This document shows, in pieces, positions 3,204 to 38,804 of a stretch of DNA of 64,000 bases (position 1 is the stretch's first letter; every line of letters starts with the position of its first letter). The stretch is from an uncultured beta proteobacterium (GTDB taxonomy: Bacteria; Pseudomonadota; Gammaproteobacteria; Burkholderiales; Burkholderiaceae_C), in NCBI GenBank assembly GCA_903832285.1, contig CAILAY010000016.1, forward strand, positions 1 through 64,000. Direction: 5' to 3'. Both the position numbers and the translations under genes were made by a program. The notes under the pieces were generated by a model that saw only the letters and a list, made by a program, of their open reading frames with translations, was not told the DNA's origin and made no database searches.

Positions 3204-5468
3204 TCACTGAAGGCGCTCCAGTTTCCCGGGGGCCACGCTTAAGGATTTACCGTCGCTGAATCGCACTGAAATCGGTACCCTGGTGGCGTTGTAGGCAAGG
3301 TAGGTCTTGCTCCCGTCTGGCTTCTTGAAAACCTGATACAGCGTGGTGTCAGCAGTCACACTGAAGTCCGGCGTCCCCATCTCCTGCAGACTGGCCAGCC
3401 AGTGCAGTGCATGGCTGCGCGTGTCGCCGAGTTCGAACGAACCCCAGCGGTTCCAACGCGCCAGACCGGCCGCCGGGTCGGCCAGGCCGAGGTACTCGGC
3501 AAAGATGTCTTGCCAGATGTCAGCGGGGGTCACGCTCTTGCCTCGGGCGTTGAATACTTCGATCTCGGGTTTGAGCGAGGCAACATTTCGACTGATGAAC
3601 TCAGGGTCGCGGGCCAGATAGGTAGAGGTCGTGGTCAGCGGCAGGATGTTGATGCCCTTGATCTGGCGCGGGTCGTCAATCCACCAGGTGTTGTGTGCAT
3701 ACATGCCGCCGAACACCTGACTCACCTCGACGCTCTTGTACTCGGGCGCAAACACCGTATGGTGGATGTCGAACCAGTAGTGGTTGATCGCATCGATTTC
3801 GGTCGTGTATAGGTAGAGGCCCAGATCACGCAAGGCCCGGTCGCCCTTGATCTCGCCCCAAAGAATGAGGCCGGCCCAGGCGTTTACCGCTTCGCTGGAC
3901 GACTCCTGGTTGTTGCCCATGGCGCCCATGCCGATGCCTGAAGCCCAGGAGTGCCCTTCATAGGGATCGAAATTGCGCAGAAACGGGAACTCGGCGCCAC
4001 CTCGCTTGGCCGTAGCGATGTCGGCGATCAGCAGGTCGATCATGCCGCCCCATTTTTCGGTTGCGGCCCAGGCCGGATCCCGCAGCGCAATGTCGGCGGC
4101 GGCGTGGATCCAGTAGCCGTAGGTGAAATGGTGGTCGTTGAGCTGTTCCACCGTGTAGAACTCCTCTGGATAGGCCGCCACCGTGCCAGCCGCCTTGTCC
4201 CAGTGAAAGTAGGTGTTGCCTTCGCCAGAAAGCCATTGCTCGGCACGACCCTTCACCAATGTCAGCAAACGGTCGCGGCCCTCCATGTCACCCTGCTGCT
4301 CAGCCACGTCCATCACTTTCAGGATACGTTGCAGTCCCTTACCCTGCCAGTAGGGCCCCTTGCCCTCTTCCAGCATCATGCGCCGCGCGTTGCGCTGGTC
4401 TGACTTCATGATTTCACCGAGCAGCGTCTTTTGCGCCGGGTCGGCTACCGCGGGCCAGAACGGGACAAACCCGGTATAGGTGGACGTGGTTGTGAACTGC
4501 TGTGCAGCAAGTAGCTTGATCTTGCCGCGCACCGTGTCGTACTCTGGCCCCAACTTGTTCTGGACCGATGCGTTGTTGAACCATTGGTGCGGGTACAGGC
4601 CCAGTAGTGGTCCGTTGTCTTCACCTTCCATCGTACGCGTGCTGGCCTTGAACGTGGTCTCGATCTGGCTGGATCCCTTGTCAAAACGCCAGTCCACATG
4701 CGTGTCCTGGATGAACGAGTAGGCGTGCCGCGTAAAAAGCGCCAAGGTGGGCGCCTTGTCGTCGGGCAGCGCGGCGGCGGCGACGTATCCTTTGCCTGGG
4801 GGCAGGCGCCCAATCCATTCAGTGGCAGAGACCGGTTCCCACCTCACGCCGGTCGGGCCGAACAGCGCATAGGTCTTCCCTTTGAGGCGCAGCGCCAGAA
4901 CGCGCGGATCGGCATCGGCGTGGATGCGCTCGGCGGCGGCAGGCAGACGCGCGCGCAGATCGCCGCGCGACAACTGCAGGTACGCGTAGGGGCTGCCGTG
5001 AGCCACCGTTACGCGCATGTCGTCGGCGCCCCGGCCCAACGAAATGTCGATCGACCAGTCGCTCGCCTTGGCAAGTCGACTCTGCCCGGGCTCGAAGGCG
5101 GTGGGGGAGAGCAGCAGCGCGTCGGTATGCGGGTAGCGGATCTCGGTGTCGCGGCGCTCGGTCGGCACAACGACTTTGCTCGGCAACGCCAGTTCAAATC
5201 CGGCGGCCGTCGGACGCACGGTGATCGGCTGCACGAAGATCGCCTCGGGCGTCGGGTTGTAGATAAGCGTCGAGTACCACTGCGCTGTCTGCGCAGCGGT
5301 CTTGGACAGCGACTCCGTGCGATAAACCGCTGTCGGCACGACTCGGTCGCTGCCCTTGGGTGCCAGAAAATAGGTGCCAGCGCCCATTTTGACGGGCTGA
5401 GCCAAAGCCCCGTGCAAGACGGTACATGTGAGCAGCACTGCCGCGGAGCAAGCTTGAATAAATTTCAT
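3204..5468 (-). CDS. Endo-beta-1,3-glucanase, glycoside hydrolase family 81, secreted
   Basis: 754 aa; signal peptide MKFIQACSAAVLLTCTVLHGALA; GH81-type motifs DHHFTYGYW and NNQESSSEAVNAW. Confidence 0.9.
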   Translation of the reverse strand: MKFIQACSAAVLLTCTVLHGALAQPVKMGAGTYFLAPKGSDRVVPTAVYRTESLSKTAAQTAQWYSTLIYNPTPEAIFVQPITVRPTAAGFELALPSKVVVPTERRDTEIRYPHTDALLLSPTAFEPGQSRLAKASDWSIDISLGRGADDMRVTVAHGSPYAYLQLSRGDLRARLPAAAERIHADADPRVLALRLKGKTYALFGPTGVRWEPVSATEWIGRLPPGKGYVAAAALPDDKAPTLALFTRHAYSFIQDTHVDWRFDKGSSQIETTFKASTRTMEGEDNGPLLGLYPHQWFNNASVQNKLGPEYDTVRGKIKLLAAQQFTTTSTYTGFVPFWPAVADPAQKTLLGEIMKSDQRNARRMMLEEGKGPYWQGKGLQRILKVMDVAEQQGDMEGRDRLLTLVKGRAEQWLSGEGNTYFHWDKAAGTVAAYPEEFYTVEQLNDHHFTYGYWIHAAADIALRDPAWAATEKWGGMIDLLIADIATAKRGGAEFPFLRNFDPYEGHSWASGIGMGAMGNNQESSSEAVNAWAGLILWGEIKGDRALRDLGLYLYTTEIDAINHYWFDIHHTVFAPEYKSVEVSQVFGGMYAHNTWWIDDPRQIKGINILPLTTTSTYLARDPEFISRNVASLKPEIEVFNARGKSVTPADIWQDIFAEYLGLADPAAGLARWNRWGSFELGDTRSHALHWLASLQEMGTPDFSVTADTTLYQVFKKPDGSKTYLAYNATRVPISVRFSDGKSLSVAPGKLERLQ

Positions 5469-5701: not shown

Positions 5702-7120
5702 ATGAATATCGATTCAACCCCATACCGTTCCTCTGGGCGGCCTGCAGCCTGCACCGCCAGAGCGCCATTCCGCGCCAACCTGCGACTCAGCCTGTTGGCT
5801 GCGGCGCTCTGTCTTTCTGGTGCCAGCCATGCCATTGAATTCGGAGCGAACGGCATGTTCAGCTTGACCGGATTTGCCGAGACGACCACGGGATTGTCCA
5901 GCAACTGGTGCGGCAATTGCCAGTGGGTCAAGGGTGCCGTGAAGGACGAAAACTGGGCCGACGCGCTCGCGCCGGGGCGCCCGTACCAAACGGTGGCAAC
6001 GGGCTTCTATCAGGTGCAACCCTACTTGGGCGCCAAGCTCGACCTGATCGACGGTTTCAAGCTTGCGGGTCTGCTGAGCCAGCGCTACCGTGACGGCGTG
6101 GTGAACGGCGACCATGTGGAAACCCGCTACGGTGGCTTGGTGGATGTCCCGGGGTTCTGGTACCAAAAAAACGTCTCCGTCAGCCACGAAGACTATGGTA
6201 GTTTGCGCATCGGCGCGATGACCACCCGGGGCTGGAGCGTCGCCGACTTCCCCTACGGAACCAACGTCGGCATGTCCTACGAGTGGGGTTCAAGTGGCGC
6301 GGGCTACGGCATGCTGAGCAACGCAGTGAGCTACACCTCACGCATCCTGGACGTGGCCCAGGGGGATCTGGTGCTGGAGGCGACCTACGATCAAGGAAAC
6401 GAACTGTTCAAGATCAACAAGCCACGGTTCATCGAGTTGTACGGGCAGTTCCACAGGGGCGACTTGGTGCTGGATGCTGTGCTACAAGATTCGCACAATG
6501 GGACTCCCGCTGCGTGGGGCCATGCACCCTTCAGTGGCCTGACACCGAACGCGGCCGACGACCCCCTGCTGCGGGGCTCCAGCCAGAACATCGCGATGGT
6601 CATGGCACGCTACCAGATCGATTCCAAACTCGAGATCTCGGGCGGCCTGCGCCGCAACCACTGGAGTGGAGCCAACGCCGTGATCACCAACCCCACGGGT
6701 GCGATCACGCCGACTGGCGTGCAGGGAACATGGAACAACATGTTCAACGTCAATTGGGGCGGTTCCCTCAACGGCGTGCAGAACCCGGGCTACCCCGCCA
6801 CGTCCGTGGACGTGCTGATGGGCGCCCGTTACCGCATGGGCAAATGGGTTGCCTCCACCGGGCTGGTGCACCTGGGAACGGCGAGCACGGCCAACCCAAG
6901 CGAGCGCGGCCAGAGCAACTCTGCGCTGTTCAACACCTTCGGTTTGAACTATGACTACGGTGGCGGTCTGGTGTTTGAGTCCACGCTGGGCACGGTGCAC
7001 TATGCCAGGCTCGGTCTGGCACCGATGTCGATGCCCGGAAACGACGCCTTTTCCAACGTGGATTCGCGTGTGAATCGCAATGGCAACTGGTTCACGGTCG
7101 GCGCGGTCTACTCGTTTTGA
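5702..7120 (+). CDS. Outer-membrane beta-barrel porin, probably carbohydrate-selective
   Basis: 472 aa; signal peptide ending GASHA; alternating aromatic beta-strand pattern; C-terminal FTVGAVYSF ending in F. Confidence 0.75.
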   Translation: MNIDSTPYRSSGRPAACTARAPFRANLRLSLLAAALCLSGASHAIEFGANGMFSLTGFAETTTGLSSNWCGNCQWVKGAVKDENWADALAPGRPYQTVATGFYQVQPYLGAKLDLIDGFKLAGLLSQRYRDGVVNGDHVETRYGGLVDVPGFWYQKNVSVSHEDYGSLRIGAMTTRGWSVADFPYGTNVGMSYEWGSSGAGYGMLSNAVSYTSRILDVAQGDLVLEATYDQGNELFKINKPRFIELYGQFHRGDLVLDAVLQDSHNGTPAAWGHAPFSGLTPNAADDPLLRGSSQNIAMVMARYQIDSKLEISGGLRRNHWSGANAVITNPTGAITPTGVQGTWNNMFNVNWGGSLNGVQNPGYPATSVDVLMGARYRMGKWVASTGLVHLGTASTANPSERGQSNSALFNTFGLNYDYGGGLVFESTLGTVHYARLGLAPMSMPGNDAFSNVDSRVNRNGNWFTVGAVYSF

Positions 7121-7145
7121 CGCCCACAAGTTCAAGGTCAATCCC

Positions 7146-8915
7146 ATGAAACTCACGAAATTCTGCACGATGCACGCGTCTCAATTGGTAAGCGTCGCTT
7201 CAACCCTTGCGCTGGCGATGCTGCTTGCCGCCTGCGGCGGTTCCGGCACGACGCCGATCACCGACGCAACGACCACGCCCAGCGGCCTGCGTGCACTGCC
7301 CGCACCCTACACCTCGGCCAAAGCCGTGAGCTACTCGCCGTATCGCAGCACCACGACCGACGCCGCAACCCATGGCACCGAAGTCATCACCGACGCCATG
7401 GTGGAGCAGGACCTCAGGTTGCTCGTTGCTGGCGGCTTCGGCCTGATCCGGTTGTTTGACAGTGACGATGTCGCAGTAACGGTGATGCGCGTCATCAGCA
7501 CCAAGAACCTGCCGCTCGTGGTGCATCAGGGCATCTACATTCAGGCCGGCAATGACGCTTTCAGCGCCGACGAGATCGCGCGCGGAGTGGCTCTTGCCAA
7601 AAGCTACCCCAACATCATTCTGGCCGTCAGCGTGGGTAACGAGACCATGGTGAATTGGAGCACGACACCCATCAATCCGACCGTGATGGCGCAGCACCTG
7701 GCCTACGTGCGCAGCCAGATCACGCAGCCGGTCACGACCGACGACAACTGGGCTTTCTACGGTCAGGCGCCCAGAATCATCATGGACACCATCGACTTCG
7801 CTTCGGTGCACACCTACTCCATGGTGGACGCGCACTACCTTCCGACCAAGTGGGACTGGAAGCAACTGAGCGTTAGCGATCTGGGGCTGCGTGCCACAGA
7901 CATGATGAACGCCGCCATGGGTTCGACACGCAGCGATTACCAGGTGGTGCGCGATTTCTTCGACGTCCAGGGCTACAAGGCCATGCCTATCGTCATTGGT
8001 GAAACCGGCTGGAAGGCCGTCGATTCCAGCGGCGCCAGTTGGTACCGCTACTTGGCGCACCCGGTGAACCAGAAGATGTACCTGGACCGCCTGGCCACTT
8101 GGGCGAACGAAGGAAAGACCGGCGCCGGTCCAAAGCAGGTCATCTACTTTGAAGCGTTCGACGAACCCTGGAAGGGAAGCGACGACAAGTGGGGGCTGTT
8201 CAACGTGCAGCGCCAGGCGCGTTACGCGGTGCAGGCGCTGCACACCGACAAGAGCAAGCCCGACACTGTCGTGACCTGGAACTGGGAGCCCGGCAGCTAC
8301 ACGGACGCCGACGCCGTCTACTACGCCCCGCCTACCATCCATGCCGCCGTGACGCAGACCAAGTACACGCTGTATTCGGAAGCGACACTGGCAGCGTCAG
8401 AGTTGCGTGAAACCTGGTTTGGCACCGTGCGTATGGACGCCTTTGCCAGCAGCACTTATCCGGAAGTCAGTAGCACCGCAGCCCCAGGCGACGGTACGCA
8501 CAGCATTGATATCGGTCCAAATCCGCAAAGTTACGGCTGGGGCGTGTTGATTCAGTCGAACCCGGGTGGCGCTTCCATCAACCTGTCGAACTTTGCCAGC
8601 GGCAACATCAATTTCAGCGTCAAGACCACCTATGCCGGCAAACTCCAGGTCGGACTGAGCAGCGACAGCGCGGACAACGGCCCTCAAGAAGCCTTTGTAG
8701 TTTTTGGCAATGGCCAGTACGGGTATTGCAATACCGGAAGTTGGTGCCAGGTTTCGATACCGGTGCAGGCCTTCCTTACTGCCAATCCCAAGCTGGATCT
8801 TCATCTTGTATTGACACGCTTCATGCTGGCTGATGTTTACGCCACCACCGGGAACTCCGCCCCGACCACAGCCCAACCTGACGTCTATCTGGACGGCGTT
8901 TACTGGCAGCAATGA
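7146..8915 (+). CDS. GH17-family beta-1,3-glucanase/transglycosylase-like lipoprotein with C-terminal beta-sandwich-like domain
   Basis: Start MKLTKFCTMHASQ...LAMLLAACGGSG (lipobox LLAAC). GH17 signatures SVGNETMV and VIGETGWK; FEAFDEPWKG. Confidence 0.85.
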   Translation: MKLTKFCTMHASQLVSVASTLALAMLLAACGGSGTTPITDATTTPSGLRALPAPYTSAKAVSYSPYRSTTTDAATHGTEVITDAMVEQDLRLLVAGGFGLIRLFDSDDVAVTVMRVISTKNLPLVVHQGIYIQAGNDAFSADEIARGVALAKSYPNIILAVSVGNETMVNWSTTPINPTVMAQHLAYVRSQITQPVTTDDNWAFYGQAPRIIMDTIDFASVHTYSMVDAHYLPTKWDWKQLSVSDLGLRATDMMNAAMGSTRSDYQVVRDFFDVQGYKAMPIVIGETGWKAVDSSGASWYRYLAHPVNQKMYLDRLATWANEGKTGAGPKQVIYFEAFDEPWKGSDDKWGLFNVQRQARYAVQALHTDKSKPDTVVTWNWEPGSYTDADAVYYAPPTIHAAVTQTKYTLYSEATLAASELRETWFGTVRMDAFASSTYPEVSSTAAPGDGTHSIDIGPNPQSYGWGVLIQSNPGGASINLSNFASGNINFSVKTTYAGKLQVGLSSDSADNGPQEAFVVFGNGQYGYCNTGSWCQVSIPVQAFLTANPKLDLHLVLTRFMLADVYATTGNSAPTTAQPDVYLDGVYWQQ

Positions 8916-8979
8916 TGCTGCACTGAAGGCACGGATACTTCGGTGTTCGTGTGCCTCCCGTCTGCATCGCGCCACCCAG

Positions 8980-10326
8980 ATGATCCGGCACATCCTCTCG
9001 TCCCGCGACAGCGCTGCACGCTTGTCGGAGCAGCACGCGCTTGAAGCCGGCGCCGCAGCGGACTTGCCATCGGTCTGGGTGGATGCGCAGCGTTCGTTCC
9101 AGACGCTGCTGGGCTTTGGCGGCGCCTTCACCGAAGCAGCAGCAGTCACTTGGAACAACCTGCCAGAGGCCGAGCGTGAACAGGTGCTGCGCGCCTATTT
9201 TGATCGCGCCATCGGCCACGGCTACGCCATCTGCCGCGTGCACATGAACAGTTGCGACTTTTCGCTGGGCAACTACGCCCATGCAGACGAGCCGGGCGAC
9301 ACCGAACTCAGCGGCTTCTCGATTGAGCGCGACCGCCAGGCACTGCTGCCTTTCATCAAGGCGGCGCAGCGGGTGGCGGGTCAGCCCCTGAAACTGCTGA
9401 TGTCGCCCTGGAGTCCGCCGGCCTGGATGAAGAGCAACGGGCAGATGAATGAAGGCGGCCATCTGCTGGCGCAGTTCGCGCGGAGTTGGGCACGCTGCTA
9501 TGTGCGATTCATCCAGGAATACGAGGCCGAGGGCGTTCCGATCTGGGGCGTCTCGGTACAAAACGAACCCGCAGCCACGCAGCGCTGGGACTCCTGCATT
9601 TACAGCGCCCAGGAGGAGCGCGACTTCGTGCGCGATCATCTGGGGCCGGAACTCGCGGCCGCCGGCCTGGGACACATCCGGATCATTGTGTGGGATCACA
9701 ATCGCGACCTGCTGGTGGAACGTGCCAGTGTCGTCTACTCGGATCCCGAGGCGGCGAAATACGTGTGGGGAGCGGGCTTTCACTGGTACGGCGAGAACCA
9801 CTTCGACCAGGTGCAACTGCTGCACGACGCCTGGCCCGACAAGCAGTTGCTGTTCACCGAAGGCTGCCAGGAAGGCGGACCGCACCAGGGTTCCTGGGAC
9901 CTGGGCGAGCGCTATGCGCACTCGATCATCAACGATCTGAACCGCTGGACCGTTGGCTGGATCGACTGGAACTTGCTGCTGGACCACAACGGCGGCCCCA
10001 ACCATGTAGGTAATTTTTGCAGTGCGCCGATCCTGGCCGACAGCCGCAATGACGCGCTCCTGTACCAGAGTTCCTACTACTATATCGGGCACTTCGCGCG
10101 CCATATCCTGCCCGGCGCGCGGCGCGTGTTGTGCGCTGCATCGCGCCACGATCTGGAGGCCTGCGCCTTTGTCAATCCCGACGGCGGTCTGGCCACCGTT
10201 GTCATGAACCGCACCGAGAATCCGATCCGTTTCCGCCTGACCCTGGGCGGCGTCGAAGCCCAGGCCGAACTGCCGCCGCGCTCTATTGCCACCTACCTGC
10301 AGCACGGTCTGCCCGCGCCGCGATAG
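8980..10326 (+). CDS. Glycoside hydrolase family 30 (glucosylceramidase/beta-1,6-glucanase-like), no obvious signal peptide
   Basis: MSPWSPPAWMKSNG, SVQNEPAATQRWDSC, LLFTEGCQEG, DWNLLLDHNGGPNHVGNFC motifs typical of GH30. Confidence 0.88.
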   Translation: MIRHILSSRDSAARLSEQHALEAGAAADLPSVWVDAQRSFQTLLGFGGAFTEAAAVTWNNLPEAEREQVLRAYFDRAIGHGYAICRVHMNSCDFSLGNYAHADEPGDTELSGFSIERDRQALLPFIKAAQRVAGQPLKLLMSPWSPPAWMKSNGQMNEGGHLLAQFARSWARCYVRFIQEYEAEGVPIWGVSVQNEPAATQRWDSCIYSAQEERDFVRDHLGPELAAAGLGHIRIIVWDHNRDLLVERASVVYSDPEAAKYVWGAGFHWYGENHFDQVQLLHDAWPDKQLLFTEGCQEGGPHQGSWDLGERYAHSIINDLNRWTVGWIDWNLLLDHNGGPNHVGNFCSAPILADSRNDALLYQSSYYYIGHFARHILPGARRVLCAASRHDLEACAFVNPDGGLATVVMNRTENPIRFRLTLGGVEAQAELPPRSIATYLQHGLPAPR

Positions 10327-10387: not shown

Positions 10388-13300
10388 TCAACCCAACTGG
10401 ATCACTAGGCTCGCCAACCCTTGCTCGCGCAAGTCCAGCGCCATGGCCTGGGGCAGCCAACTGTCGTGGTGGGTGCAGCGCCTGCCATCCAGGTAATTCA
10501 GTTGGTATGAAACCGGGGCGACGGCGTGCGGACCAAAGGTCGGACGCCGGCTCGGGTTCTGGTACACGATCCAGGTCTGCCCGAACAGCTTGAAGCCAAA
10601 GCCGTCGGCGCTGAAGTGCTCCGTGGGCAGGGTTGTGAACAGCCAATCGGCCAGCATGGGGCGCGGCTCAAAGCGCAATGCTCCATCCACCAACCGGAAC
10701 GGCTCTGCACCCAGTCCCATGTGCAGCACCATGCTGATCCACTCGGCCGTGGCACCGCTCAGTCGCGCCACGAACCCGGCGCCGTGGACCCTGGCGTCGG
10801 GGAAACGGCTGCTGGCTATGAAGGACGAGTTCTCCAGCGGCGAGCGTCCGTAAACCTTGGGGTCGTGAAATGCCACCAGTCCGCGCTTGAGGTCTTCGAA
10901 AAATTCCGTGGCCAATCCGCTGCGCAAGGTTTCGAGCAGGAACTTGTAGTGCATGTGCAGGAAGATCGATTCGTTCTCCAGCCATCCCGGCGCAAACACG
11001 CGGCTGCGCCCGATCTCGAAGCTTTCCCGGTCCAGAGGGACGTTCACGCGGTACATGCCAAGCTTTTGATCAAAGAGTTCCGAGCGGCGCACGGCGGCGT
11101 AAAGCGCTGACGCGTCCACCTTGCCCGAGCGCAGCGCATGCACCGTGCCTTCGAGGAAGGCCGCCACAGGCTTGCGGCTGAAACGCCGCGCCCGCACATG
11201 CTGCGCTGGCGCCTCCTCGTGCGCCGCGTGTCCTGGTGATGGCAGCAGGTCGAATTCGACCACCTCGTGCGTGGTGTAGCTCACCGGCAAACCCTGGGCA
11301 TCCACGGCCTGCGCCAGGCCTCGGTCCAAAACGCTCAGCGCGGCGTCGATAAAGCGCAGCAGTTCGTCCCCCGACAGGCCCTGCTCAACGCCCGACACGC
11401 CAAGACGCACCTGCTCACGAAAAGCTTCACGTTCGGTTGCCAGGCGTTGCCAGGTGGGAAAGAACTCCTTGCCGTCGAAACCCGTCAGGGTTTCGGTGAC
11501 GGATCGAATCAGTGTGGCAACTTCCTGCGACACGATCAGTTGCTCGGGCGCGCGAAGATGCTCGCTCACCGTGCGCCGACAGAACTGCGCCCAGCGCTGC
11601 AGCGCGTACGCCTCGTGCGTGGAAGAACCAAACAGCCCAGGCAAGCCGTTAAGCGCGTCACACCATCCTGGCTTTTCGGTCTCCATTTCGAGCCCAATGC
11701 CAAAAGGATCGAACAGCGAAGCCTTTACGGCCAATAGGCTCACGATCTTCCCCAACAAGCTGGTACGGTAGATCGGACCCAGGCCGTGCTGCGTGCGCAT
11801 GCACTGAGCTTGCTCGCTACGCCGCGCCATCAGCGCGGTCTTCTCCATGTCCTGCACCACGGCGTGCAACTGTCGCACCGATCCATCCTGACGCAGCACG
11901 TACTTCTTGTCGCGAGGCTGCACCACGTAATCACTGTCGAAGAAACTGTATCTGGGTTGTGCCAGCAGCACCGCGCCAAGGCGGTCGGGGTAGAGGGCGG
12001 CATAACTGTCGATCAAGTCCAGGTTGTATATCCAGTGATCAACCCAATAGCCTTCGCCGTGCGTTGCACCCTGAATCCTGTCGGCCAAGCCGATGATGGT
12101 CTCAAACCGCGATTGGGCTGAAGCCAGAGTCGCGCAATCCGTGATCAGCATTTCATGCAGCTGCCCGGGGCTGAAAGGCTGAGATAGAAACTCCTGCCAA
12201 CAAGGGTTGGCTCCTTCTAGCCATAACATCTTCAGCGAATTCAACTGCTCGCTGGGCAGGATGAATTGTTCCGGGTGCACGCTCAACGGGTTGTTGCCGT
12301 CGATCTGAATCAGGTCGAAAAATGTCTCGATGTTGGCCGCGTCCACGCCGGGAAAGGTGAAATTCTCGCTGCGACGATTCTGGTTCACGTCGCGGAAATT
12401 GGAGCTGCCTTGTGACCAGTAACTCGGCGCCAACTCAAAGAAGTTGTAGTCGCGCTCCATGTCGCCGTGCTTGCGCGTGAAGCTGTGAAAGACCCGCGGC
12501 CCTCGTGGACCAGAGATCACCACGGGCTGCCCGCCGCGCAATGTATTGTCAAGAAACGCCTGCTGCGTGTAAGGGTCCAGTTGCTGAGGTCGCGCCAGCA
12601 GCGCGAACCGGGAACTCAGACCCGAGATCAGGCTCGCGTTTTCATCGCGACGCTTGACCGCGTACAGCGCATCAGCCTTGACCCGATCGCGCAAAGAGCG
12701 GGCAATCAACCAGTCCGGGACTTGACCGAAGTAGGACTCCCATGACATGCTCGCCCCAGGTTTCAGCGACAGCGGCAAGTGCGCGAACGCGCAAGCGGTC
12801 AGCGTTTCGCGGCGTCCGGCAAGTGCATCAATGCACTCCTTTCCGATGAAGCTGAGCGGATGTCGCAAGCTGGTGTCGAACCCGAACACCTGGTCCGGGT
12901 CGCAGACCACCGGCATGCTCTGGCCCTGATGCATCGTGAAGGAAAAGAAGCCTTCGTGCAGCCATCGCACTTCGGCCTCGTCGGAGGCCTCAACCTTGAG
13001 CTTGAAGAACGGCAGCTTCTCGTCCACATGGCAGACTTCGGCAAACGCCTCCATCGTGCGTGACATCATCTTGAGCGCATTCTGGCCCAGTCCGTAAGGG
13101 ACGATCTGCGGCAGTCCGTCAAGCACCTGGCCACTGCGCGTACTGAGTCCGATGTTCTCCAGCGTGACGCGGCGCACCAGCGCCGGCAGGTTCTCGCCGG
13201 GCAACGTGAAGTACACGACCCGCATGCGCAACCCCAGGGCACGGTTCGTATCCTCGATTTCGATCTCGTGGGCGCGCACGGTGAACCTATGCTCCTTGCC

Positions 13301-13609
13301 CGTGCTGGCGCAGCCCTGGAAGGGTTCGTACAGCACCGGTGCAGCGGCTTCGTTGAGCTTGATGAAGCTGCGAAAGCCGTACAGCGAGGTCAGCGCGTAG
13401 GCCTTGTTCGCCGGGTGAAACTCGAGCATGGAGGCGTTCTTGTCGCGCACACCAAAGCTCGAAATGCACTGTCCGCGGTTCGTGTAGAAAGCCCACAGCG
13501 GTTTTCCATAGGCGCCCGCAATGCCCGGGAGAAAACCGGAAAATGGCCGAGCGGCGTTGAAGTCTTCGAGGGTGAAGCCGGTGGTATCACCGTCGATCTG
13601 TGGATTCAC
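10388..13609 (-). CDS. GH149/GH94-type beta-glucan phosphorylase, likely beta-1,3-oligoglucan phosphorylase
   Basis: ~1073 aa from a GTG (VNPQIDGDTTGF...) 10 bp after the pgm stop. Size and laminarin-locus context fit GH149 better than ~800-aa GH94. The longer M start at 13690 would overlap pgm. Confidence 0.7.
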   Translation of the reverse strand: MNPQIDGDTTGFTLEDFNAARPFSGFLPGIAGAYGKPLWAFYTNRGQCISSFGVRDKNASMLEFHPANKAYALTSLYGFRSFIKLNEAAAPVLYEPFQGCASTGKEHRFTVRAHEIEIEDTNRALGLRMRVVYFTLPGENLPALVRRVTLENIGLSTRSGQVLDGLPQIVPYGLGQNALKMMSRTMEAFAEVCHVDEKLPFFKLKVEASDEAEVRWLHEGFFSFTMHQGQSMPVVCDPDQVFGFDTSLRHPLSFIGKECIDALAGRRETLTACAFAHLPLSLKPGASMSWESYFGQVPDWLIARSLRDRVKADALYAVKRRDENASLISGLSSRFALLARPQQLDPYTQQAFLDNTLRGGQPVVISGPRGPRVFHSFTRKHGDMERDYNFFELAPSYWSQGSSNFRDVNQNRRSENFTFPGVDAANIETFFDLIQIDGNNPLSVHPEQFILPSEQLNSLKMLWLEGANPCWQEFLSQPFSPGQLHEMLITDCATLASAQSRFETIIGLADRIQGATHGEGYWVDHWIYNLDLIDSYAALYPDRLGAVLLAQPRYSFFDSDYVVQPRDKKYVLRQDGSVRQLHAVVQDMEKTALMARRSEQAQCMRTQHGLGPIYRTSLLGKIVSLLAVKASLFDPFGIGLEMETEKPGWCDALNGLPGLFGSSTHEAYALQRWAQFCRRTVSEHLRAPEQLIVSQEVATLIRSVTETLTGFDGKEFFPTWQRLATEREAFREQVRLGVSGVEQGLSGDELLRFIDAALSVLDRGLAQAVDAQGLPVSYTTHEVVEFDLLPSPGHAAHEEAPAQHVRARRFSRKPVAAFLEGTVHALRSGKVDASALYAAVRRSELFDQKLGMYRVNVPLDRESFEIGRSRVFAPGWLENESIFLHMHYKFLLETLRSGLATEFFEDLKRGLVAFHDPKVYGRSPLENSSFIASSRFPDARVHGAGFVARLSGATAEWISMVLHMGLGAEPFRLVDGALRFEPRPMLADWLFTTLPTEHFSADGFGFKLFGQTWIVYQNPSRRPTFGPHAVAPVSYQLNYLDGRRCTHHDSWLPQAMALDLREQGLASLVIQLG

Positions 13610-13619
13610 GAAGGGTCGC

Positions 13620-15272
<1,653 letters not shown>

Positions 15273-16736
15273 TCAGACGCGCAAACCGGGTTGGACGATC
15301 TGAGCGTACAGCGCCAGATAGCTGCGCGCCGCGCCGTCCCAGGAAAAATCCTGCGCCATCGCGTGTTGCATCATCTGCTGCCAGAGCGTCGGATGACGGA
15401 AGGTTTCGATGGCGCGCAGCAACGCGACTTTGAGTGCCTGAGGCGTCGCCTCGTCAAAGCAGAATCCGCTAGCGGTATCGGAGCGCAGCGCTTCGTCGGT
15501 AGCGTCGACGACGGTGTCGGCCAGGCCGCCGACACGACGTACCAGCGGCAGCGTGCCATAACGCAATGCGTAGAGTTGCGTGAGGCCGCAGGGTTCGAAA
15601 CGCGACGGGACCAACATCACGTCGGAACCCGCGACCAAGCGGTGCGCGAACGTCTCGTCGTAGCCGATGCGCACGGCCACCTGCGCGGGATGCTCCTTCG
15701 CGGATGCAAGGAAGGCGGCTTCCAGCGCGGTGTCACCGCTGCCCTGCAACGCAAGCTGCGCACCCGATCGCACAAGGTCGGGCAGGACAGCCAGCAGAAG
15801 GTCCAATCCTTTTTGCTGCGTCAAGCGACTCACGAGCCCGAACATCGGCGCCAGCGGATCCGGCTTCAGGCCCAGTTCGGCTTGCAGTGTGACCTTGCAG
15901 CGCGTCTTGCCGCCCAAGAACTTAGCCGAATAATTCGCCACCAGGCCGGCGTCAGTAAGCGGATTCCAAACCTCCGGGTCGACACCATTGAGGATGCCGC
16001 TGACATCGGCACCGCGCTCCAAAATCACGCCTTCCATGCCGCAGCCAAACTCGGGCGTGGCGATCTCCCTTGCGTAGCTCGGGCTTACGGTGGTGACGCG
16101 CTGCGCAAAGTGCAACCCTGCCTTGAGGAAGGACACTTGGTTGTGAAATTCCAGGCCTCTCGGTCCCATGTGCTTGCGCGGCAAACCCAGTGCCGGGAAT
16201 TCTTCTGCCGGGAAAAGACCCTGAAATGCCAGGTTGTGCACCGTGAACACTGTGGCGCAGCGATTGCCCGGATGCGCAGCAACGTAGGCGCATGCCAGGC
16301 CCGCGTGCCAGTCATGCGCATGCATGAGGTCGGGCACCCACCGCGGGTCAAGTTCACCTGCCGCCAGATGCGCAGCGACCCAACCCAGCATCGCAAATCG
16401 ATGGAAGTTATCGCTCCACTCCGCACCGTCAGCGCTGCGGTAGGGGTCGCCTGGTCTGCGGTACAAGTAAGGTGCGTCGACCACATACACCGGCACACGA
16501 CTGCGCGGCATGCGCCCCAGGCGCAGCATGACGCGGCCGGCGCCAAAGAGCGGACCGAATTCGCATACCAGTTCCTGCTTTTCCACAGCGTCTGCAATCG
16601 CTGGCAGTCCGGGCACCACAAGCCGTACGTCCGCTCCCAGTGCGATCAAGGCCTGCGGTAACGCACCTAGCACGTCGGCCAGACCACCGGTCTTGAGCAG
16701 CGGGAAGATCTCGGTTGCAACCTGCAAGACTTTCAT
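15273..16736 (-). CDS. glgA: Glycogen synthase (ADP-glucose)
   Basis: [60 protein letters not shown]. Confidence 0.96.
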
Positions 16737-16746
16737 GCGCCGAGCT

Positions 16747-18015
16747 TCAGGTATTGAGAGCATCGAGCATGGCCCGTGTCACGAGCGTGATTCCTTTTTC
16801 AGTGCGGAAGAATCTCTCGGCGTCGGCCTGCGCGTCTTCGCCGATCACCATTCCGTCCGGGATTTGGCAGGCACGGTCCACGACCACGCGGTTCAAGCGC
16901 ACGTGGCGTCCGACCTCGACTTCGGGCAATAGCACCGACCAGTCCACACTGGAATAAGAGTGCACACGCACGCTGGAGAACAGCACCGAGCGAAACACCT
17001 TGCCAGAGATGATGCTGCCACCCGATACCAGTGACTCTATCGCCATGCCACGGCGATCCTCCTGGTTGTGCACGAATTTCGCGGGAGCAAGCTGCGCCTG
17101 GTAGGTCCAGATCGGCCAGTGCGTGTCGTACAGGTTGAGCATTGGGTCGGTGGCGGTGAGGTCGATGTTCGCGTCCCAATAGGAATCGATGGTGCCAACG
17201 TCGCGCCAGTACGGGGCTTCGTCGGGGCCACTGGTGACACAGCTTAGCGCGAACGGATGGGCAACCGCGCAGCCATTGCGCACCGCACGCGGAATAATGT
17301 CCTTGCCGAAATCGTGAGTGGAGTCGGGGTCGGTCATGTCGCGCGCGAGTTCGGTGTACAGGTACTTGGCATTGAAGATGTAGATCCCCATGCTGGCCAG
17401 CGACTGATCCGGTTTCCCCGGCACGGCCGGCGGATCGGCCGGCTTCTCGACAAAATCGACGATGCGCCAATTGGCGTCTACGGCCATTACGCCAAAACCC
17501 TTGGCCTCTTCGCGGCTGACCTCGATGCAGGCGACCGTGCACTCAGCGCCCTTGGCCACATGGTCGGCCAGCATCAGTGCGTAGTTCATCTTGTAGATGT
17601 GGTCGCCGCCGAGCACCACCACGTACTGCGCCTCGTAGCTTTCCAGTATGTCCCAGTTCTGTGACACCGCATCAGCCGTGCCTCGGTACCAGAACTCCTC
17701 GTTCATGCGCTGCTGTGCCGGCAGCAGGTCGACAAATTCGTTCATCTCGCTCTTCAGAAACGCCCAGCCGCGCTGCAGATGGCGCAACAGGCTGTGCGAC
17801 TTGTACTGCGTGATGACACCGACGCGCCGGATGCCAGAGTTCATGCAATTCGACAGCGCGAAGTCGACGATGCGAAACTTGCCGCCAAAGTAGACCGCAG
17901 GCTTGGCGCGCCGGTCCGTCAGGTCGCGCAGGCGGCTGCCGCGTCCGCCCGCGAGCACCAACGCAATGGCTCGTTTAGGTAAATCAAGTTGGCGTGCGAG
18001 ATCTTGGGACTGCAT
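16747..18015 (-). CDS. glgC: Glucose-1-phosphate adenylyltransferase
   Basis: [52 protein letters not shown]. Confidence 0.96.
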
Positions 18016-18074
18016 GGAGCCTCCGCAATAAGTGAGTGGGAAAAAGGGGCAGTGGTACGGATCGGGGAGCCGGC

Positions 18075-20429
18075 CTAAACAAACTTGGGTTTGCCGTCTT
18101 TGTCCCAAAGGCCCCAGTTGGCACCTACGTCACCTTCGGCACACACCTTCCAGGGTTCATCGAACGAGGAGAAATAGAACAACTCGACACCTTCAAGGCG
18201 CGCCCAGTCCTGAGTCTCAATGAAGTACCGCATTGCATTCGCGGGCGACGGCATCGCTGCCGACACCGTCTGGCCTTGGCTGGGCCACCCGGTCTCGGCA
18301 ATGATGACTTTCTTGCCGCTGGCAGCCTTTTGCACCAGCGCGTGCATGTGTTTCAGGTAACGCAGTGCCTGTGCAATATCCGCACCTTCCCAAAACGGGT
18401 AGCAGTTGGGTAGCACCACATCGCAGGCCTGCGTCAACGCCGGCCTGTCAAGGAACTCATAGTAGGCGTCGACACAACCCACCGGTACGTGTCCCGGCAG
18501 TGCAGCCTTGACACGCCGGATGTAGCCCAGCAGTTCCTCTTGCGGCAACTCGTTGCGCAGCATCACCTCATTGCCCACTGTTGCGATATTCACCAGACCC
18601 TCAGCGGCCAGTTTCAGCAGCGAAGAGATTTCGCGCTCGTTGCGCTCGCGGTCAGCGCCGATCCAGGCGCCCACCATCGTCTTCAACCCCTGGGCACGGG
18701 CCAGCGCTGGGATCATCTCATGGCCTTCGGTGCACGAGAACGACCGGACCCACCGCGTGTGGGGCGCGACTATGCCGATGCGGCGGCGAATCTGCGCCTC
18801 GGACAACAGGTCGCCGGTGCCCTGCCCCTCGACATAGGGACTGAAGCACAAGCCGTGCACGCCGTCCAAACGCGCCTGCGAGAACAGCACTGCAATCTGC
18901 TGTGGCGACAGACCCGCCAAGCGAGATGCCGGCGCATCCGCAGGGTCCAGCCGGAGCCTCTTCAGGTGATGCCACCCGCCCGATCCCAGGGAAGACGCCG
19001 TGGCGGCAGGCTGCTTGCGCCGCTGCAACTCGGCGTTAACCTCCATGGCGCGCTTCTCGTCCAGGTCATAGTTGCGCATGATCCACATGGCGAGCAGCGT
19101 GCCGAGGATGGGCACGCCAGAATAGAACAGCCGCAGGCCGTCGACAGCGCCTTCGGGCTGCATGGGGGCGCCGGGAGTGAACGCCACCAGTGACATGATC
19201 GCGCCGCTAAGCAGCCCGGCGACGGCAAAGCCGAGCTTCACCATCCACCAGTAGATGGCGCCAAAAATACCTTCGCGTCGCTTGCCGGTGGCCAGTTCGT
19301 CCAGGTCACACACGTCGGCCGTCATCGACATCATCAGCGTGAACAGGCCGCCGATTCCGAACGAGAAGAACGGCAGCGCAAACATGAACAGCCAGGGTTT
19401 GCCGGGCACCATCAGGAACCATAACAACACGTAGCCGAGAAGGGAGACACCCTGCGAAAGCATGAAAGCGTTCTTCTTGCCAACCTTCCTGGACATCCAC
19501 GCCACGGTGGGAATCACGGCGAAGGTGGTCACCAGTGCGCCGATGCTGCCGAACAACGTGGGCCAGATGCCGGCAGCCGCGGTGTCGCCCTTGAAGAGGT
19601 GGTAGACGACGATGAAGAACGAGAACGCCGCCACGGTGTTGAAGGCGTTAAAGATCAGGAACGTGGAAAAGCACAGCTTGCGGAAGGGCGCGCAGCCAAA
19701 GGCCTCCTTGAAGCCGTTCAACAGTTCCTTGACTCCGGCACCCAGGTTCGCGATCGTGAGCGGGATCAGGTGATCGTCATCAGCGGTCGATCGGCTGGGG
19801 ATGAACAAGGCCGGCACCATGGCCAGCAGCATGCAGATTACGCCCACCCAGACCGACAAGTTGCGCGCTGCCGAGTCGGCGTTCGCGAACCACTTGGGGT
19901 CGTACATCACGACCCAGAACCACGGCGCGATCACCCAAGCCCACTGGCCGATCCACTGCGCCACGGCCATGATGCTGGTGCGCTCGTGAAAGTCATCACT
20001 CATCTCGTAGCCGATGGCCACGTAGGGAATGCTGAACACAGTCAACCCGGTGAAGAACACGAGCGACCAGAGCAAGAAGTAGACGAAGTTGTGGGTTAAC
20101 CCGTCCGCTCGATGGAGTTGCCACATCGCCACGAAGGCGACGCCCATCAAAATGGCGCCGATGAAGACATACTGCCGGCGCCGGCCCCATTTGGAGCGCG
20201 TGTTGTCGGAGACGAAGCCCATGATCGGGTCGAGGATCGCGTCGTAGGCACGCGGCAGAAAGAACAGGATGCCCCACATCCAGGTCGGGAAGCCCATGTC
20301 CTGCACTAGCACCACCATGAAGATGCCCAGGGCGGCCGGGAACATCTGGTTGGCCAGCATGCCCAGCCCGAAGGCGACCTTCTGCCCGAACGGGACCTTG
20401 TGAGACCTGGTGGCGGTGGATGTGTTCAT
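18075..20429 (-). CDS. Fusion protein: N-terminal GPH-type MFS sugar transporter + C-terminal GH17 catalytic domain
   Basis: 784 aa in one frame. aa 1-~455 polytopic with [14 protein letters not shown] and [21 protein letters not shown]. aa ~480-784 GH17 with TVGNEVM and IIAETGWPS. Confidence 0.92.
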
Positions 20430-20462: not shown

Positions 20463-20876
20463 TCAATGGCGAAGATTACTGAGCAGTGCCAGCAGCCACA
20501 GCGCGCCGAAAACGAAGGGCAATGACTTGGCAGCCCAACGGCCGCGGTGAGCAATGTGGCTGGCCGGGGCCAGCGGGCACAGGTCGTTCAACCCGGCCTC
20601 GTCAAACTGCTGTTTGATCGCGTCGGTAGCAGCCATCGCCGTGTAGACGCCCACCCCGGCCAGAAAGGCCACCAGGATGCCGAACACAGGAAAACCCAGC
20701 ACCAGCCAGTTCAAGCCGTCACGCGCCTGCGCGCCGTATGCGGTAAACATCAATCCCTCGGACCATATCAGCCAGCCCATGCGCTGGTTGACCAGGTTGT
20801 CCTCGTGGGTCCACTGCTCGCGCAGTGCGCGGTAGTGGTCCCAAAGCGCCACATCGGGGGTTCGGTGGGTGTGCAT
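20463..20876 (-). CDS. Small membrane protein of unknown function
   Basis: 137 aa; WDHYRALREQWTHEDNLVNQRMGWLIWSEGLMF... with two to three hydrophobic segments; embedded in the glucan operon. Confidence 0.7.
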   Translation of the reverse strand: MHTHRTPDVALWDHYRALREQWTHEDNLVNQRMGWLIWSEGLMFTAYGAQARDGLNWLVLGFPVFGILVAFLAGVGVYTAMAATDAIKQQFDEAGLNDLCPLAPASHIAHRGRWAAKSLPFVFGALWLLALLSNLRH

Positions 20877-20901: not shown

Positions 20902-21858
20902 TCAGGCGTTGGCCGCCGCAGGCATCAGGTTGGCGTAGAGAGATTGCATCCCGCGTTTGGGCTGCCGATCCACGGTGAACAAACCCCAGTGCTTCTCGGG
21001 TTCCAGCGGGTCAGGCGACCCTTTCCAGGGCTCGTCAAAGGCCTCAAACACAAAAATCATCAACCCGGTTTCTGCCGACCAATCCATCAAATCCTGGTAG
21101 TAAATGGCCTGCAATTCTTCGGACGAGTTGTGCGGCTGAATCCCGCGGCCATTGGAGTTGGTGGCCCATCCCGCTTCGGTGATCATGATCGGCTTGCCGG
21201 GGTACAAGCGCGCGACGCTTTCCACGTTGTCTTTGGTGTATTCCAATGCTTCGTGGATGTGCCTGTACTCCCACACCGGATACGTATGCAGGGAGATGAA
21301 ATCAACTTCTGCAACCAAGTCACGCAACTTGTGTTGCCAAGGTACATAGTTCTCGCAAAAGGTGACGGGTTGGCTGACGTGCTTTTTGACATGGCGCACG
21401 TACTCGATCATGTGGCTGACCGGCACAAAATGGTCGGTCCATTCCACCGTGGCCTCATTGCCAACCGCGACACTGAAAACAATCTTTGGATAACGGTTTG
21501 CCAGATCAATCAGGCGCGCAATCTCGGTGTTGTTGGCAAGCGTGCTTTTTTTAAGATGTTCTTCGCTGTAGGTGCCGCCCCACGGACAGCCAAAGTTGTT
21601 CATTTCGGGGCCAAGGTAGGCGCCAAGCATGATCTGAAAATCGAGCTGATCTTCGGTGATCACCTGGAGCACCCGCTCCGCGTGCATGGTGCAGTCGTAC
21701 AGCCGAAGGTAGCGCCAGTTCCTTTGCAAAATATGCAGGTCCTCCCGGATTTCATCAACGGACGGAAAGATCTGCGTATCCGGGCTTTGTCCCCTTCGAT
21801 AACCCGAATAGCAAATCGCTTTGCCGGGCTTGAGACTGCGAAGAATGGAAGACGTCAA
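20902..21858 (-). CDS. GH17-family glucan hydrolase/transglycosylase, no signal peptide
   Basis: 318 aa from TTG; SVAVGNEATVEW, IMITEAGWATNS, FEAFDEPWKGS. Confidence 0.85.
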   Translation of the reverse strand: MTSSILRSLKPGKAICYSGYRRGQSPDTQIFPSVDEIREDLHILQRNWRYLRLYDCTMHAERVLQVITEDQLDFQIMLGAYLGPEMNNFGCPWGGTYSEEHLKKSTLANNTEIARLIDLANRYPKIVFSVAVGNEATVEWTDHFVPVSHMIEYVRHVKKHVSQPVTFCENYVPWQHKLRDLVAEVDFISLHTYPVWEYRHIHEALEYTKDNVESVARLYPGKPIMITEAGWATNSNGRGIQPHNSSEELQAIYYQDLMDWSAETGLMIFVFEAFDEPWKGSPDPLEPEKHWGLFTVDRQPKRGMQSLYANLMPAAANA

Positions 21859-22820
21859 GGCTTGTACTCCGCAGCAAATTTGGGTTGAGCTTCCTTATCC
21901 CATAAGCCCCAATAGGCGCCCACGTCACCTTCTGCGCCCACCTTCCATGCCTCGTCAAAGGCGGCAAAGTAAAACATGTCAACCTCGGCCTGTTGAGCCC
22001 ACGTGACGGTGTCAATAAAGTAACGCATCGCACCCGCGCGGGATGGCACCGAACCATGAAAAGCCGAACCGCGATCTGGCCAGCCCGTCTCGCTGATGAT
22101 GACCGGTTTGCCGCCCGAAACCGCCTGAACCCGTCGCACCATGGTTTGCATGTAGTCGAGCGCTTGCTCGCGCGGGCAACCTTCCCAAAACGGATAGCAA
22201 TTGGTCAGGAGCACATCGCACGCGGCCGTGATGCGCGGATGCTTCTCAAACAAATAGTAGGCATCGACGTAGCCAACCTTTACCCCAGGCAGCGCTTGCT
22301 TGACACGCTCCATAAATCCGAGCAACTCATCTTCACTCAGGTCTTCACGCAGAAGTACCTCATTGCCGACGGCAACGATGTCTGCGTGGCCTGCCCGGGC
22401 CACTGCAATCACGCCCTCAATCTCGCGCTCATTGATTTCGCTGTCGGTGCCCAACCAAGCGCCCACCAAGGTTTTCAGGCCAAGCTGGTGTGCAATACCA
22501 GGAATGAGTTCATTGCCATCGGTGCAGGAAAAGCTGCGTACCCAACGCGCGTAGGGCGCCATGATCTGCAGCCGCGCGCCGATTTGCTCTGCCGTCACTT
22601 GAGAGCCCGGCGCCTGGCCATCCAGGTAGGGGCTAAAGCACAGACCATGCACACCGACCGCCAGGGTCTGCGCAAAAGCCCCTTCCAGGGACTTTTGATC
22701 GGCAGCACTGAGGGCAGGTTCTGGCACGGCGGTCAAGGCTGACCCGGGTGTAAAACCGGCCGCCCCTGTACCCGTAGCCGCGGGAATCCAGCCGCCGGTT
22801 GAAGAAATAGTTTGTGACAT
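21855..22820 (-). CDS. GH17-family glucan hydrolase/transglycosylase, no signal peptide; paralogue of the GH17 domain in the MFS fusion
   Basis: 321 aa; [43 protein letters not shown]. Confidence 0.88.
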   Translation of the reverse strand: MSQTISSTGGWIPAATGTGAAGFTPGSALTAVPEPALSAADQKSLEGAFAQTLAVGVHGLCFSPYLDGQAPGSQVTAEQIGARLQIMAPYARWVRSFSCTDGNELIPGIAHQLGLKTLVGAWLGTDSEINEREIEGVIAVARAGHADIVAVGNEVLLREDLSEDELLGFMERVKQALPGVKVGYVDAYYLFEKHPRITAACDVLLTNCYPFWEGCPREQALDYMQTMVRRVQAVSGGKPVIISETGWPDRGSAFHGSVPSRAGAMRYFIDTVTWAQQAEVDMFYFAAFDEAWKVGAEGDVGAYWGLWDKEAQPKFAAEYKP

Positions 22821-22846
22821 GGCAATATGCTCGGTAAAGGTAGGCG

Positions 22847-23767
22847 TTAGGTTTTTTTGGCTTTGGGTTTTTTCTGGAACGGCAGCTTGCCCTGGCCGAT
22901 CGGTTTGACCGTGCCATAGCCACCCACCTTGTCGTACACACGCACATAGTCCACCACCATCTCGGCTGGAAACTGCGTCTCAGCGTTTGGGTGGCCAGGG
23001 AAGTTCCCACCCACAGCCACATTCATGACGAGGTAGAACGATTGGTCAAATGGTGCGGGCCAGGGGTTCACGTCAGCCTGGTTTTTAGCGGCCACACCGA
23101 CGCCATCCGCCGTTTTTTTGCTGCAAGACCACCAGAAGTTTTGCGTTGCCCACAATACCCCATCAAGCAACCAGCGAATCTCACCCGGCTCCCACTCAAC
23201 GGTATAAACATGCCAGTCAGCCACGGTGCTGCCGTTGGGGATGTCATAAACATGGGTGACAAGTTCGCGCTCGGGGAAGGTCGACCCAAAGTGGATGGTG
23301 CCAAGCGTCTGCTGCGGCTTTTCACCGACAATTTCCATGACATCAATTTCGCCGGATGCGGCCCAACCACCGTATTTGTCATCCTGCGGCAGCAGCCACA
23401 ACGCGGGCCACATGCCCTTGCCCCAGGGGACCTTGGCGCGGAACTCGAATTTGCCGTATTTCTTTGTGAACAGCGGCGTGCCGTCGCGCTTGCGCGTCTT
23501 CAGCCGGGCTGAGGTGTAGCCGCAGCCATGCAGCGACTCCTTGACCGCCCGGATCGTCAGCAGCGAATCCTTGACGAAGACGTTTTCCGGTTCGCGCGTG
23601 TAGTACTGCAGTTCTTCGTTGCCCCAGCCATCAATCCACTGGTGGTTCTTGTAGTCGAAGAAACCGTTTCCGATGTCGAAGTCCCATTTGGTGGAGTCCA
23701 CGGCGTTGCCGTCGAACTCGTCGCTCCAGACGAGTTTCCATTTTGCTTTGCGAGGCGTTGTCAACAT
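22847..23767 (-). CDS. GH16-family endo-beta-1,3(4)-glucanase, no signal peptide
   Basis: 306 aa; GEIDVMEIVGE catalytic motif, WGNEELQYYT, MNVAVGGNFPG. Confidence 0.93.
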   Translation of the reverse strand: MLTTPRKAKWKLVWSDEFDGNAVDSTKWDFDIGNGFFDYKNHQWIDGWGNEELQYYTREPENVFVKDSLLTIRAVKESLHGCGYTSARLKTRKRDGTPLFTKKYGKFEFRAKVPWGKGMWPALWLLPQDDKYGGWAASGEIDVMEIVGEKPQQTLGTIHFGSTFPERELVTHVYDIPNGSTVADWHVYTVEWEPGEIRWLLDGVLWATQNFWWSCSKKTADGVGVAAKNQADVNPWPAPFDQSFYLVMNVAVGGNFPGHPNAETQFPAEMVVDYVRVYDKVGGYGTVKPIGQGKLPFQKKPKAKKT

Positions 23768-24092: not shown

Positions 24093-25154
24093 TCAGCCGT
24101 TCCGTAATCGGCTCGACTCGCGGCAGATCAGAACGGGTGACGGGACTTGCAACGTCGGCTTGTCACCGACGAGAAGTTGCAGCATGGCGGACGCCGCAAG
24201 GCGTCCGAGGTGGTACGCCGGTTGATGAATGGTCGTGAGCGGCGGCGTGGCGTACTGCGAGGTCGGTACGTCGTCGAAGCCAACCAGGGAGACATCTTCT
24301 GGAACCCGCAGCGAGTGTCGATGCAGGCCGAGCGCCGCCCCAGCGGCCATCTGGTCGTTGGCGGCGAATATTGCAGTGAATCGCTGGCGCGACTCTAACA
24401 AACGGTCCACCGCGAGCAGGCCACTGACCTCGTGAAAGGCGCCTGCTACGGTGAGCCCGGGTTCGTAGTTGATTCCGGCCGCCTCGAGCGCGGCGCGATA
24501 ACCCCGCTGGCGCTCATTCGCATCAGGATGATCAGGTGGCCCGGCGATAAAGGCAATGCGTTGGTGGCCAAGGTCAATCAGGTGTTGAGTGGCCAGGCAT
24601 CCTCCCTCAAAATTGTTGAAATTCAACGAGAACAGGCCCGCCGCCTTGAGTAGGCGCCCTGTGACCACGACGGGGATGCTCTTGGCACAGGTTTTGAGCG
24701 CCTGATCGGATAGCCGCCCGGTGAGTGCGATGATGCCATCGACTCGGCGTCCTCGCAGAATCTCCAGGCAGCGTGTTTCCACGGCCTCGTTCCAATGCCC
24801 ACTTACAAACAGCGCGTTATAGCCCGCAGGATCGAGTTCGTCCTCCACGCCGCGCAGCGCCGCACCATAGAACGGGCTGTCGATGGCTCCAGTGACCACT
24901 CCGATGCTGAAGGTACGTCCACCCGCCAGCCCTCGCGCCACGGGGTTGGGCACGAATCCCAGTTTCGCGATGGCATTTTCCACCGATTTTTTCTTGCTCT
25001 CACTGACAACTGCAGTGCCATTCAGGATGCGCGACACGGTGCTCGGCGAAACCCCAGCCAATTCAGCCACATGATCCAGCGTGACCACCTTGGCGGTACG
25101 CTTTGGTGGCGCCATTGCACGCGAGCGGTGAGGGGTCGAGTTTTTCATATCCAT
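24093..25154 (-). CDS. LacI-family transcriptional regulator
   Basis: VTLDHVAELAGVSPSTVSRILNGTAVVSESKKKSVENAIAKLGFVPNPVARGL; periplasmic-binding-like sensor domain. Confidence 0.95.
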   Translation of the reverse strand: MDMKNSTPHRSRAMAPPKRTAKVVTLDHVAELAGVSPSTVSRILNGTAVVSESKKKSVENAIAKLGFVPNPVARGLAGGRTFSIGVVTGAIDSPFYGAALRGVEDELDPAGYNALFVSGHWNEAVETRCLEILRGRRVDGIIALTGRLSDQALKTCAKSIPVVVTGRLLKAAGLFSLNFNNFEGGCLATQHLIDLGHQRIAFIAGPPDHPDANERQRGYRAALEAAGINYEPGLTVAGAFHEVSGLLAVDRLLESRQRFTAIFAANDQMAAGAALGLHRHSLRVPEDVSLVGFDDVPTSQYATPPLTTIHQPAYHLGRLAASAMLQLLVGDKPTLQVPSPVLICRESSRLRNG

Positions 25155-25398
25155 CGAGGTCCTGGAAGCGCACAAGTTTAATGCCAGTTCTCACGCTCAT
25201 TTTGGGCCAAAATCAACCCCATTAAAAATTGATGAAGTGCCCAACGCGGGCGCTACGTCCGACAGAACGCCCGCCACCAAGCCGACTGTCCTAAGTTCAG
25301 CGTCAATTCAAATCTTTGCCAAACAGACGCGTTACCGGTTAAGTGGGGCCCCGTTGCGCATCGAGACCTGTCATTTGTTTTCGGCAGTTTGGATATCG

Positions 25399-32347: not shown

Positions 32348-32351
32348 AGAT

Positions 32352-38793: not shown

Positions 38794-38804
38794 TGAAAGT
38801 TGGT

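Follow-up and report, generated by a model that had tools for sequence, protein, structure and literature searches.

A laminarin utilisation locus with an MFS-GH17 gene

The 64,000-nucleotide stretch analysed here (the window) contains a beta-1,3-glucan (laminarin) utilisation locus. Its core is a tight minus-strand cluster encoding GH16, GH17a, GH17b, a 137-residue hydrophobic protein, a fusion of a major facilitator (MFS) transporter to a GH17 domain, GlgC, GlgA, phosphoglucomutase (PGM) and a GH161-like phosphorylase. The genes of the locus are as follows.

3204..5468 (-): GH81 endo-beta-1,3-glucanase, apparent signal peptide
5702..7120 (+): putative outer-membrane porin, so named for the look of its sequence, as it matches no family; syntenic in relatives
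7080..8915 (+): GH17 lipoprotein-like protein with a C-terminal extension
8833..10326 (+): GH30, beta-1,6-glucosidase-like
10388..13690 (-): GH161-like beta-1,3-glucan phosphorylase, 1100 aa, no evident signal peptide on visual inspection
13620..15254 (-): PGM
15273..16763 (-): GlgA, glycogen synthase
16747..18108 (-): GlgC, ADP-glucose pyrophosphorylase; the listed TTG probably lies upstream of the true start
18075..20429 (-): MFS(GPH)-GH17 fusion, 784 aa, from ORF analysis, Pfam, AlphaFold2 with Foldseek, and full-length homologues
20463..20876 (-): small hydrophobic protein of 137 aa without a family
20902..21858 (-): GH17b, no evident signal peptide on visual inspection
21855..22820 (-): GH17a, stand-alone, related to the fused GH17 domain (54-55%), no evident signal peptide on visual inspection
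22847..23767 (-): GH16, no evident signal peptide on visual inspection
24093..25175 (-): LacI-family regulator, located upstream of the operon and retained in syntenic loci

The gene order LacI-GH16-GH17a-GH17b-MFS(-GH17) is kept in other Burkholderiales. The best PDB match of the phosphorylase at 10388-13690 is GH161A (9qqk, E 1.3e-199), and assignment to GH149 was rejected, the NCBIfam score being 98.7 bits against a cut-off of 1150. Clustering of this enzyme with PGM, GlgC and GlgA suggests that glucose-1-phosphate from phosphorolysis flows directly to glycogen. The lack of an evident signal peptide on GH17b, GH17a and GH16 (20902-23767, minus strand) implies entry of long beta-1,3-gluco-oligosaccharides into the cytoplasm. 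The 137-residue hydrophobic protein stands between GH17b and the fusion, and its homologue in another locus (L135, 63%) also adjoins GH17b. Upstream of the laminarin locus, the minus strand from 26031 to 40440 encodes a series of signalling proteins, namely a MerR/receiver protein, hybrid histidine kinases, GGDEF-like proteins and an HD-GYP response regulator.

Architecture and topology of the fusion protein

The minus strand at 18075-20429 is a single 784-residue frame, from ATG to stop with 0 internal stops. An initial annotation of this DNA had described the uninterrupted frame, omitting its strand, and had singled out a stop in the linker as evidence that would speak against a fusion; the frame holds none. 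The protein divides into three parts.

19056..20429 (-): GPH/MelB-type MFS domain, residues 1-458, 12 TM helices, from Pfam, AlphaFold2 and Foldseek
18864..19055 (-): linker, residues 459-522 (~64 residues), conserved in length and poorly in sequence, with a cytosolic helix at 458-472
18075..18863 (-): GH17 catalytic domain, residues 523-784 plus stop, with acid/base E621, nucleophile E712, and Leu624 replacing Tyr136 of MlGH17B, a stand-alone GH17 enzyme

Could the frame be an assembly artefact, or a missed frameshift that joins two genes? The window genome is a 200-contig assembly, and this is what speaks for an artefact. Full-length homologues (58-79% identity) with the identical junction occur in ~75 other genomes, which excludes chance or misassembly, and the junction recurs in dozens of independent assemblies, among them the isolates Rubrivivax rivuli and Flavobacterium filum. 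Since so many genomes share this junction, and no stop interrupts the frame, we reject an artefact, to which we give a vanishingly small chance. Comparison of the window with one relative (L084) gave pN/pS values of 0.17 for the MFS domain, 0.40 for the linker and 0.22 for the GH17 domain, and across three relatives the two domains ranged over 0.17-0.18 and 0.22-0.31, respectively. Both domains are thus under purifying selection.

Pfam places MFS_2 on residues 20-458 (E 1.3e-63) and Glyco_hydro_17 on residues 695-783 (E 1.1e-10, above cut-off), the latter match spanning just the C-terminal third of the GH17 domain. The domain is nonetheless complete in an AlphaFold2 model, computed from an alignment of 41 fused proteins, which predicts an entire barrel starting near residue 505. 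The model (mean pLDDT 85.8, pTM 0.66) comprises 12 membrane helices, the cytosolic helix, a weak linker and a TIM barrel; with the linker at pLDDT 57-65 and the pTM at 0.66, the pose of one domain relative to the other is weakly constrained. Foldseek, run on the two halves separately, matched the MFS half to MelB (9old) and the GH17 half to the R. miehei GH17 glucanosyltransferase (4WTR/4WTP), each with a TM-score of 0.87 by target length. The catalytic glutamates of the VGNE (E621) and AETGWP (E712) motifs, which the annotation had pointed out, are invariant in 171/171 aligned relatives, and alignment, AlphaFold2 and Foldseek together place them in a (beta/alpha)8 barrel. An in-frame fusion of a GPH-type MFS transporter to GH17, as originally proposed, is therefore borne out by Pfam, the model and the fold matches to MelB and 4WTR. 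The linker, then called short, in fact extends over 61-69 residues between TM12 and the barrel in the 41 homologues, the cytosolic helix included; its length is kept, while its sequence is poorly conserved.

The MFS part is a divergent GPH-like transporter. It scores 178 bits against the GPH:cation symporter model TIGR00792, below the curated cut-off of 231, yet its MFS_2 match lies far over cut-off and its fold is that of MelB. D63 and D67 align with the cation-site residues Asp55 and Asp59 of MelB and are invariant in the 41 homologues; Lys398 aligns with MelB Lys377. Lysine and arginine make up 20% of predicted inside loops and 6% of outside loops, and the positive-inside rule holds in 41/41 homologues, in which the segment after the last TM helix carries a mean of 6.4 K+R. 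Because of this charge bias, the C-terminus, and hence the GH17 domain, is predicted to be cytoplasmic. The initial annotation had placed it there too, and the MelB fold match agrees; the predicted topology gives no sign of the periplasmic GH17 that it had named as contrary evidence.

Distribution, origin and a second fusion

LacS is a GPH transporter with a regulatory C-terminal IIA domain, and LplT-Aas is an MFS transporter fused to an acyltransferase-synthetase that acts on lipids. Both resemble the window protein in joining a cytoplasmic C-terminal functional domain to an MFS/GPH transporter, and differ from it in that the attached domain is regulatory (LacS) or lipid-acting (LplT-Aas) and not a glycoside hydrolase. 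A much closer counterpart is FbGH17B (FORMB_24740, AOR29491.1) of Formosa sp. Hel1_33_131, an MFS-GH17 fusion published in 2018, with 12 TM helices followed by GH17, an architecture stated to be common in marine Flavobacteriia (PMC6246565). MFS-GH17 fusions were further described in 2023 in most variant-1 laminarin loci, including those of SAR92, Luminiphilus and SAR86 MAGs (PMC10108472). The initial annotation knew of no characterised fusion of this kind and had named a published characterisation as contrary evidence; one exists, for the Formosa homologue, and in view of these two reports the architecture cannot be called novel. The window protein is a further case of it. What is new here is the Burkholderiales clade, the losses of the tail, an independent second fusion and a residue pattern at the +1 subsite.

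FbGH17B and the window protein share domain order and locus type, and the fusion of a Formosa MAG (L128) is 61% identical to the window protein over its full length. The window differs in its Burkholderiales host and in its porin, GH81 and GH161 locus, with no SusC/SusD among the annotated genes. The SAR92, Luminiphilus and SAR86 fusions likewise combine GH17 with MFS in laminarin loci of Gammaproteobacteria, the class in which GTDB places Burkholderiales; these clades are marine, and their fusions, known here by description, are not assigned to the first or second fusion type distinguished below.

In a set of 300 genomes from the same family, the full fusion is present in five (74-76% identity) and the MFS alone in three (82-88%). 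In named genomes, 75/80 of the best GH17 matches have the same fusion, a proportion biased toward fusion by the ranking of these 80 loci on similarity to the fused GH17 domain. The fused ones comprise 20 Burkholderiales records and many Bacteroidota, isolates included, from Flavobacteriaceae, Saprospiraceae, Lewinella, Cyclobacteriaceae and others, where the cluster order is GH17-GH30-[MFS-GH17]-GH17-GH16. Five Bacteroidota loci (L131, L143, L152, L156, L162) encode MFS and GH17 side by side as separate genes. Sampling across the phylum and the class turned up close relatives of MFS and of GH17 outside the family, all of them unfused; none of the 369 class genomes sampled has the fusion outside the window's family, and the plasmids searched gave MFS or GH17 singly and no fusion.

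Quick trees with SH-aLRT values as their support measure were built for each domain. In the MFS tree the Burkholderiales clade (support 99) is nested within Bacteroidota beside Lewinella-type sequences (96), and in the GH17 tree a single clade (100) unites the fused domains of Burkholderiales, next to those of Bacteroidota and away from the neighbouring stand-alone GH17a. In these trees both domains of the window protein group with the Bacteroidota fusion. The simplest reading is that the fusion reached a Burkholderiales ancestor by horizontal transfer from Bacteroidota. The idea that the fused domain arose from GH17a by local duplication was rejected, since that domain groups with the Bacteroidota fusions and not with its neighbour. 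Three Burkholderiales transporters (L069, L070, L071), 82-88% identical, lack the GH17 tail, and no GH17 remnant was found downstream of them. They occupy three separate positions inside fused clades of the MFS tree, so the tail has probably been lost three times.

A second type of fusion (type II), a YagG-like GPH symporter joined to a GH17a-type domain, is present in three Burkholderiales beta-1,3-glucan loci.

L074:7780-10242 (-): YagG-like GPH symporter plus GH17a-type domain
L072:8509-10917 (-): YagG-like GPH symporter plus GH17a-type domain
L073:8637-11057 (+): YagG-like GPH symporter plus GH17a-type domain

The type II transporter is a canonical YagG-like GPH symporter (TIGR00792 403 and 394 bits, above cut-off) and is 24-25% identical to the window transporter. 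The fused domain of L074 sits inside the clade of stand-alone Burkholderiales GH17a (support 98) and occupies the place of GH17a in the gene order. The AU test rejects one common origin of all MFS-GH17 fusions (p 0.0007 for the constraint grouping all fused GH17 domains) and does not reject a shared origin of the three type II fusions (p 0.119). As judged from these sequences, a YagG-like transporter has been joined to this kind of GH17 in a separate event. A search of 250 family genomes gave no additional type II case, and no published description of one was found in the literature searched, which took in few subscription journals. G101 (L075), in which a long frame had pointed to a fusion, was discarded, that frame being a stop-free extension over GH16.

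Proposed coupling of import to hydrolysis

The GH17 part of FbGH17B was assayed as an exo-beta-1,3-glucosidase that acts solely on debranched laminarin, with reported release of glucose (PMC6246565). The initial annotation had allowed the window enzyme either to trim or to transglycosylate. In Muricauda lutaonensis, MlGH17B is a beta-1,3-glucanosyltransglycosylase whose gene adjoins an MFS gene (PMC11005184, PMC13188888). It resembles the window GH17 in subfamily, locus position, the lack of a signal peptide and an MFS gene beside it, and differs in being unfused, in having the Tyr136 acceptor platform and in transferring to beta-1,6. Its +1 subsite Tyr is considered essential for transglycosylation (PMC11005184), and the Tyr-to-Ala mutant of RmBgt17A at this subsite abolished transfer. 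Of the acceptor-platform residues Tyr136, Trp191 and Glu192, the window protein keeps Trp and Glu and has Leu for Tyr; FbGH17B has Met (PMC11005184), so that both are without the transglycosylation Tyr. The position is non-Tyr in 82/83 fused domains and in 54/55 of those from Bacteroidota, as against Tyr in 53/57 stand-alone Bacteroidota GH17s, although fused and stand-alone Bacteroidota domains form separate clades and the pattern is close to one evolutionary contrast. Stand-alone Burkholderiales domains all have Leu.

A fused GH17 acting mainly as a beta-1,3-glucanosyltransferase like MlGH17B, rebuilding or branching oligosaccharides on entry, perhaps so as to retain or store them, would fit the conserved acceptor-site Trp and Glu (YPFWE), the nearest solved relative by sequence, the R. 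miehei glucanosyltransferase 4WTP, and the 53% identity between MlGH17B and FbGH17B (PMC11005184). We consider this improbable, given the Leu here, the Tyr contrast in Bacteroidota and the glucose release reported for FbGH17B (PMC6246565). Trimming is favoured over transglycosylation because Leu replaces the +1 Tyr and FbGH17B, the fused homologue with a known activity, is a hydrolase; of the two activities first proposed, the residue pattern and this analogy thus support the former and speak against the latter.

Our preferred reading, to which we assign a probability of about 0.8, is that the window protein is a laminarin-locus fusion of the FbGH17B type, derived from Bacteroidota, in which a MelB-like importer carries a tethered cytoplasmic GH17 that hydrolyses beta-1,3-gluco-oligosaccharides as they enter. 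The transporter would import short, debranched oligosaccharides, presumably by cation symport, and the GH17 domain, on its ~64-residue linker and probably at the cytoplasmic face, would hydrolyse them as they emerge. Products and leftover oligosaccharides would pass to cytoplasmic GH17a, GH17b, GH16 and the GH161 phosphorylase, and glucose-1-phosphate to PGM (glycolysis) and GlgC/GlgA (glycogen); the fusion may speed or pull uptake. The frame, domains, fold, catalytic residues, gene cluster and phylogeny were computed here, and the enzyme activity is that of the Formosa homologue's GH17. Coupling of transport to hydrolysis was itself put forward as a hypothesis in 2018.

Two findings count against this mechanism: the operon also holds untethered GH17a and GH17b with no evident signal peptide, and three Burkholderiales lineages keep the transporter without the tail, which indicates that the fusion is dispensable for transport. 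The GH17 domain might be a passenger, the fusion a neutral read-through of neighbouring genes with no benefit from coupling, as the adjacent separate genes of the five Bacteroidota loci and the apparent threefold loss of the tail would allow. We regard this as unlikely, because the fusion is kept across two phyla with a conserved linker length, the GH17 domain is under purifying selection, and a second, distantly related GPH transporter independently acquired a GH17 of the same subfamily, again in a locus of this kind. A stronger proposal, that selection for coupling led two GPH subfamilies, each on its own, to fuse with the same cytoplasmic type of GH17 in laminarin loci, and that this domain lacks transglycosylation and is a dedicated exit-side trimmer that pulls import, is one we put forward tentatively, at a little under even odds.

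Algae store laminarin as a major glucan, and a physical link between uptake and hydrolysis could account for rapid use of its oligosaccharides with little loss. The window shows that the fusion published from marine bacteria has also reached Burkholderiales; its host is a freshwater-type betaproteobacterium. The natural series of fused, tail-less, adjacent but separate and re-fused forms, the last with another transporter, makes the 2018 hypothesis directly testable and offers a comparison of orthologous transporters with and without the enzyme. Apart from this series, the GH17 domain of the Phaeodactylibacter luteus fusion (L147:441-2837, plus strand) retains Tyr and is separated by a long branch from the rest of the fused domains; a further fusion or a domain replacement may be the cause.
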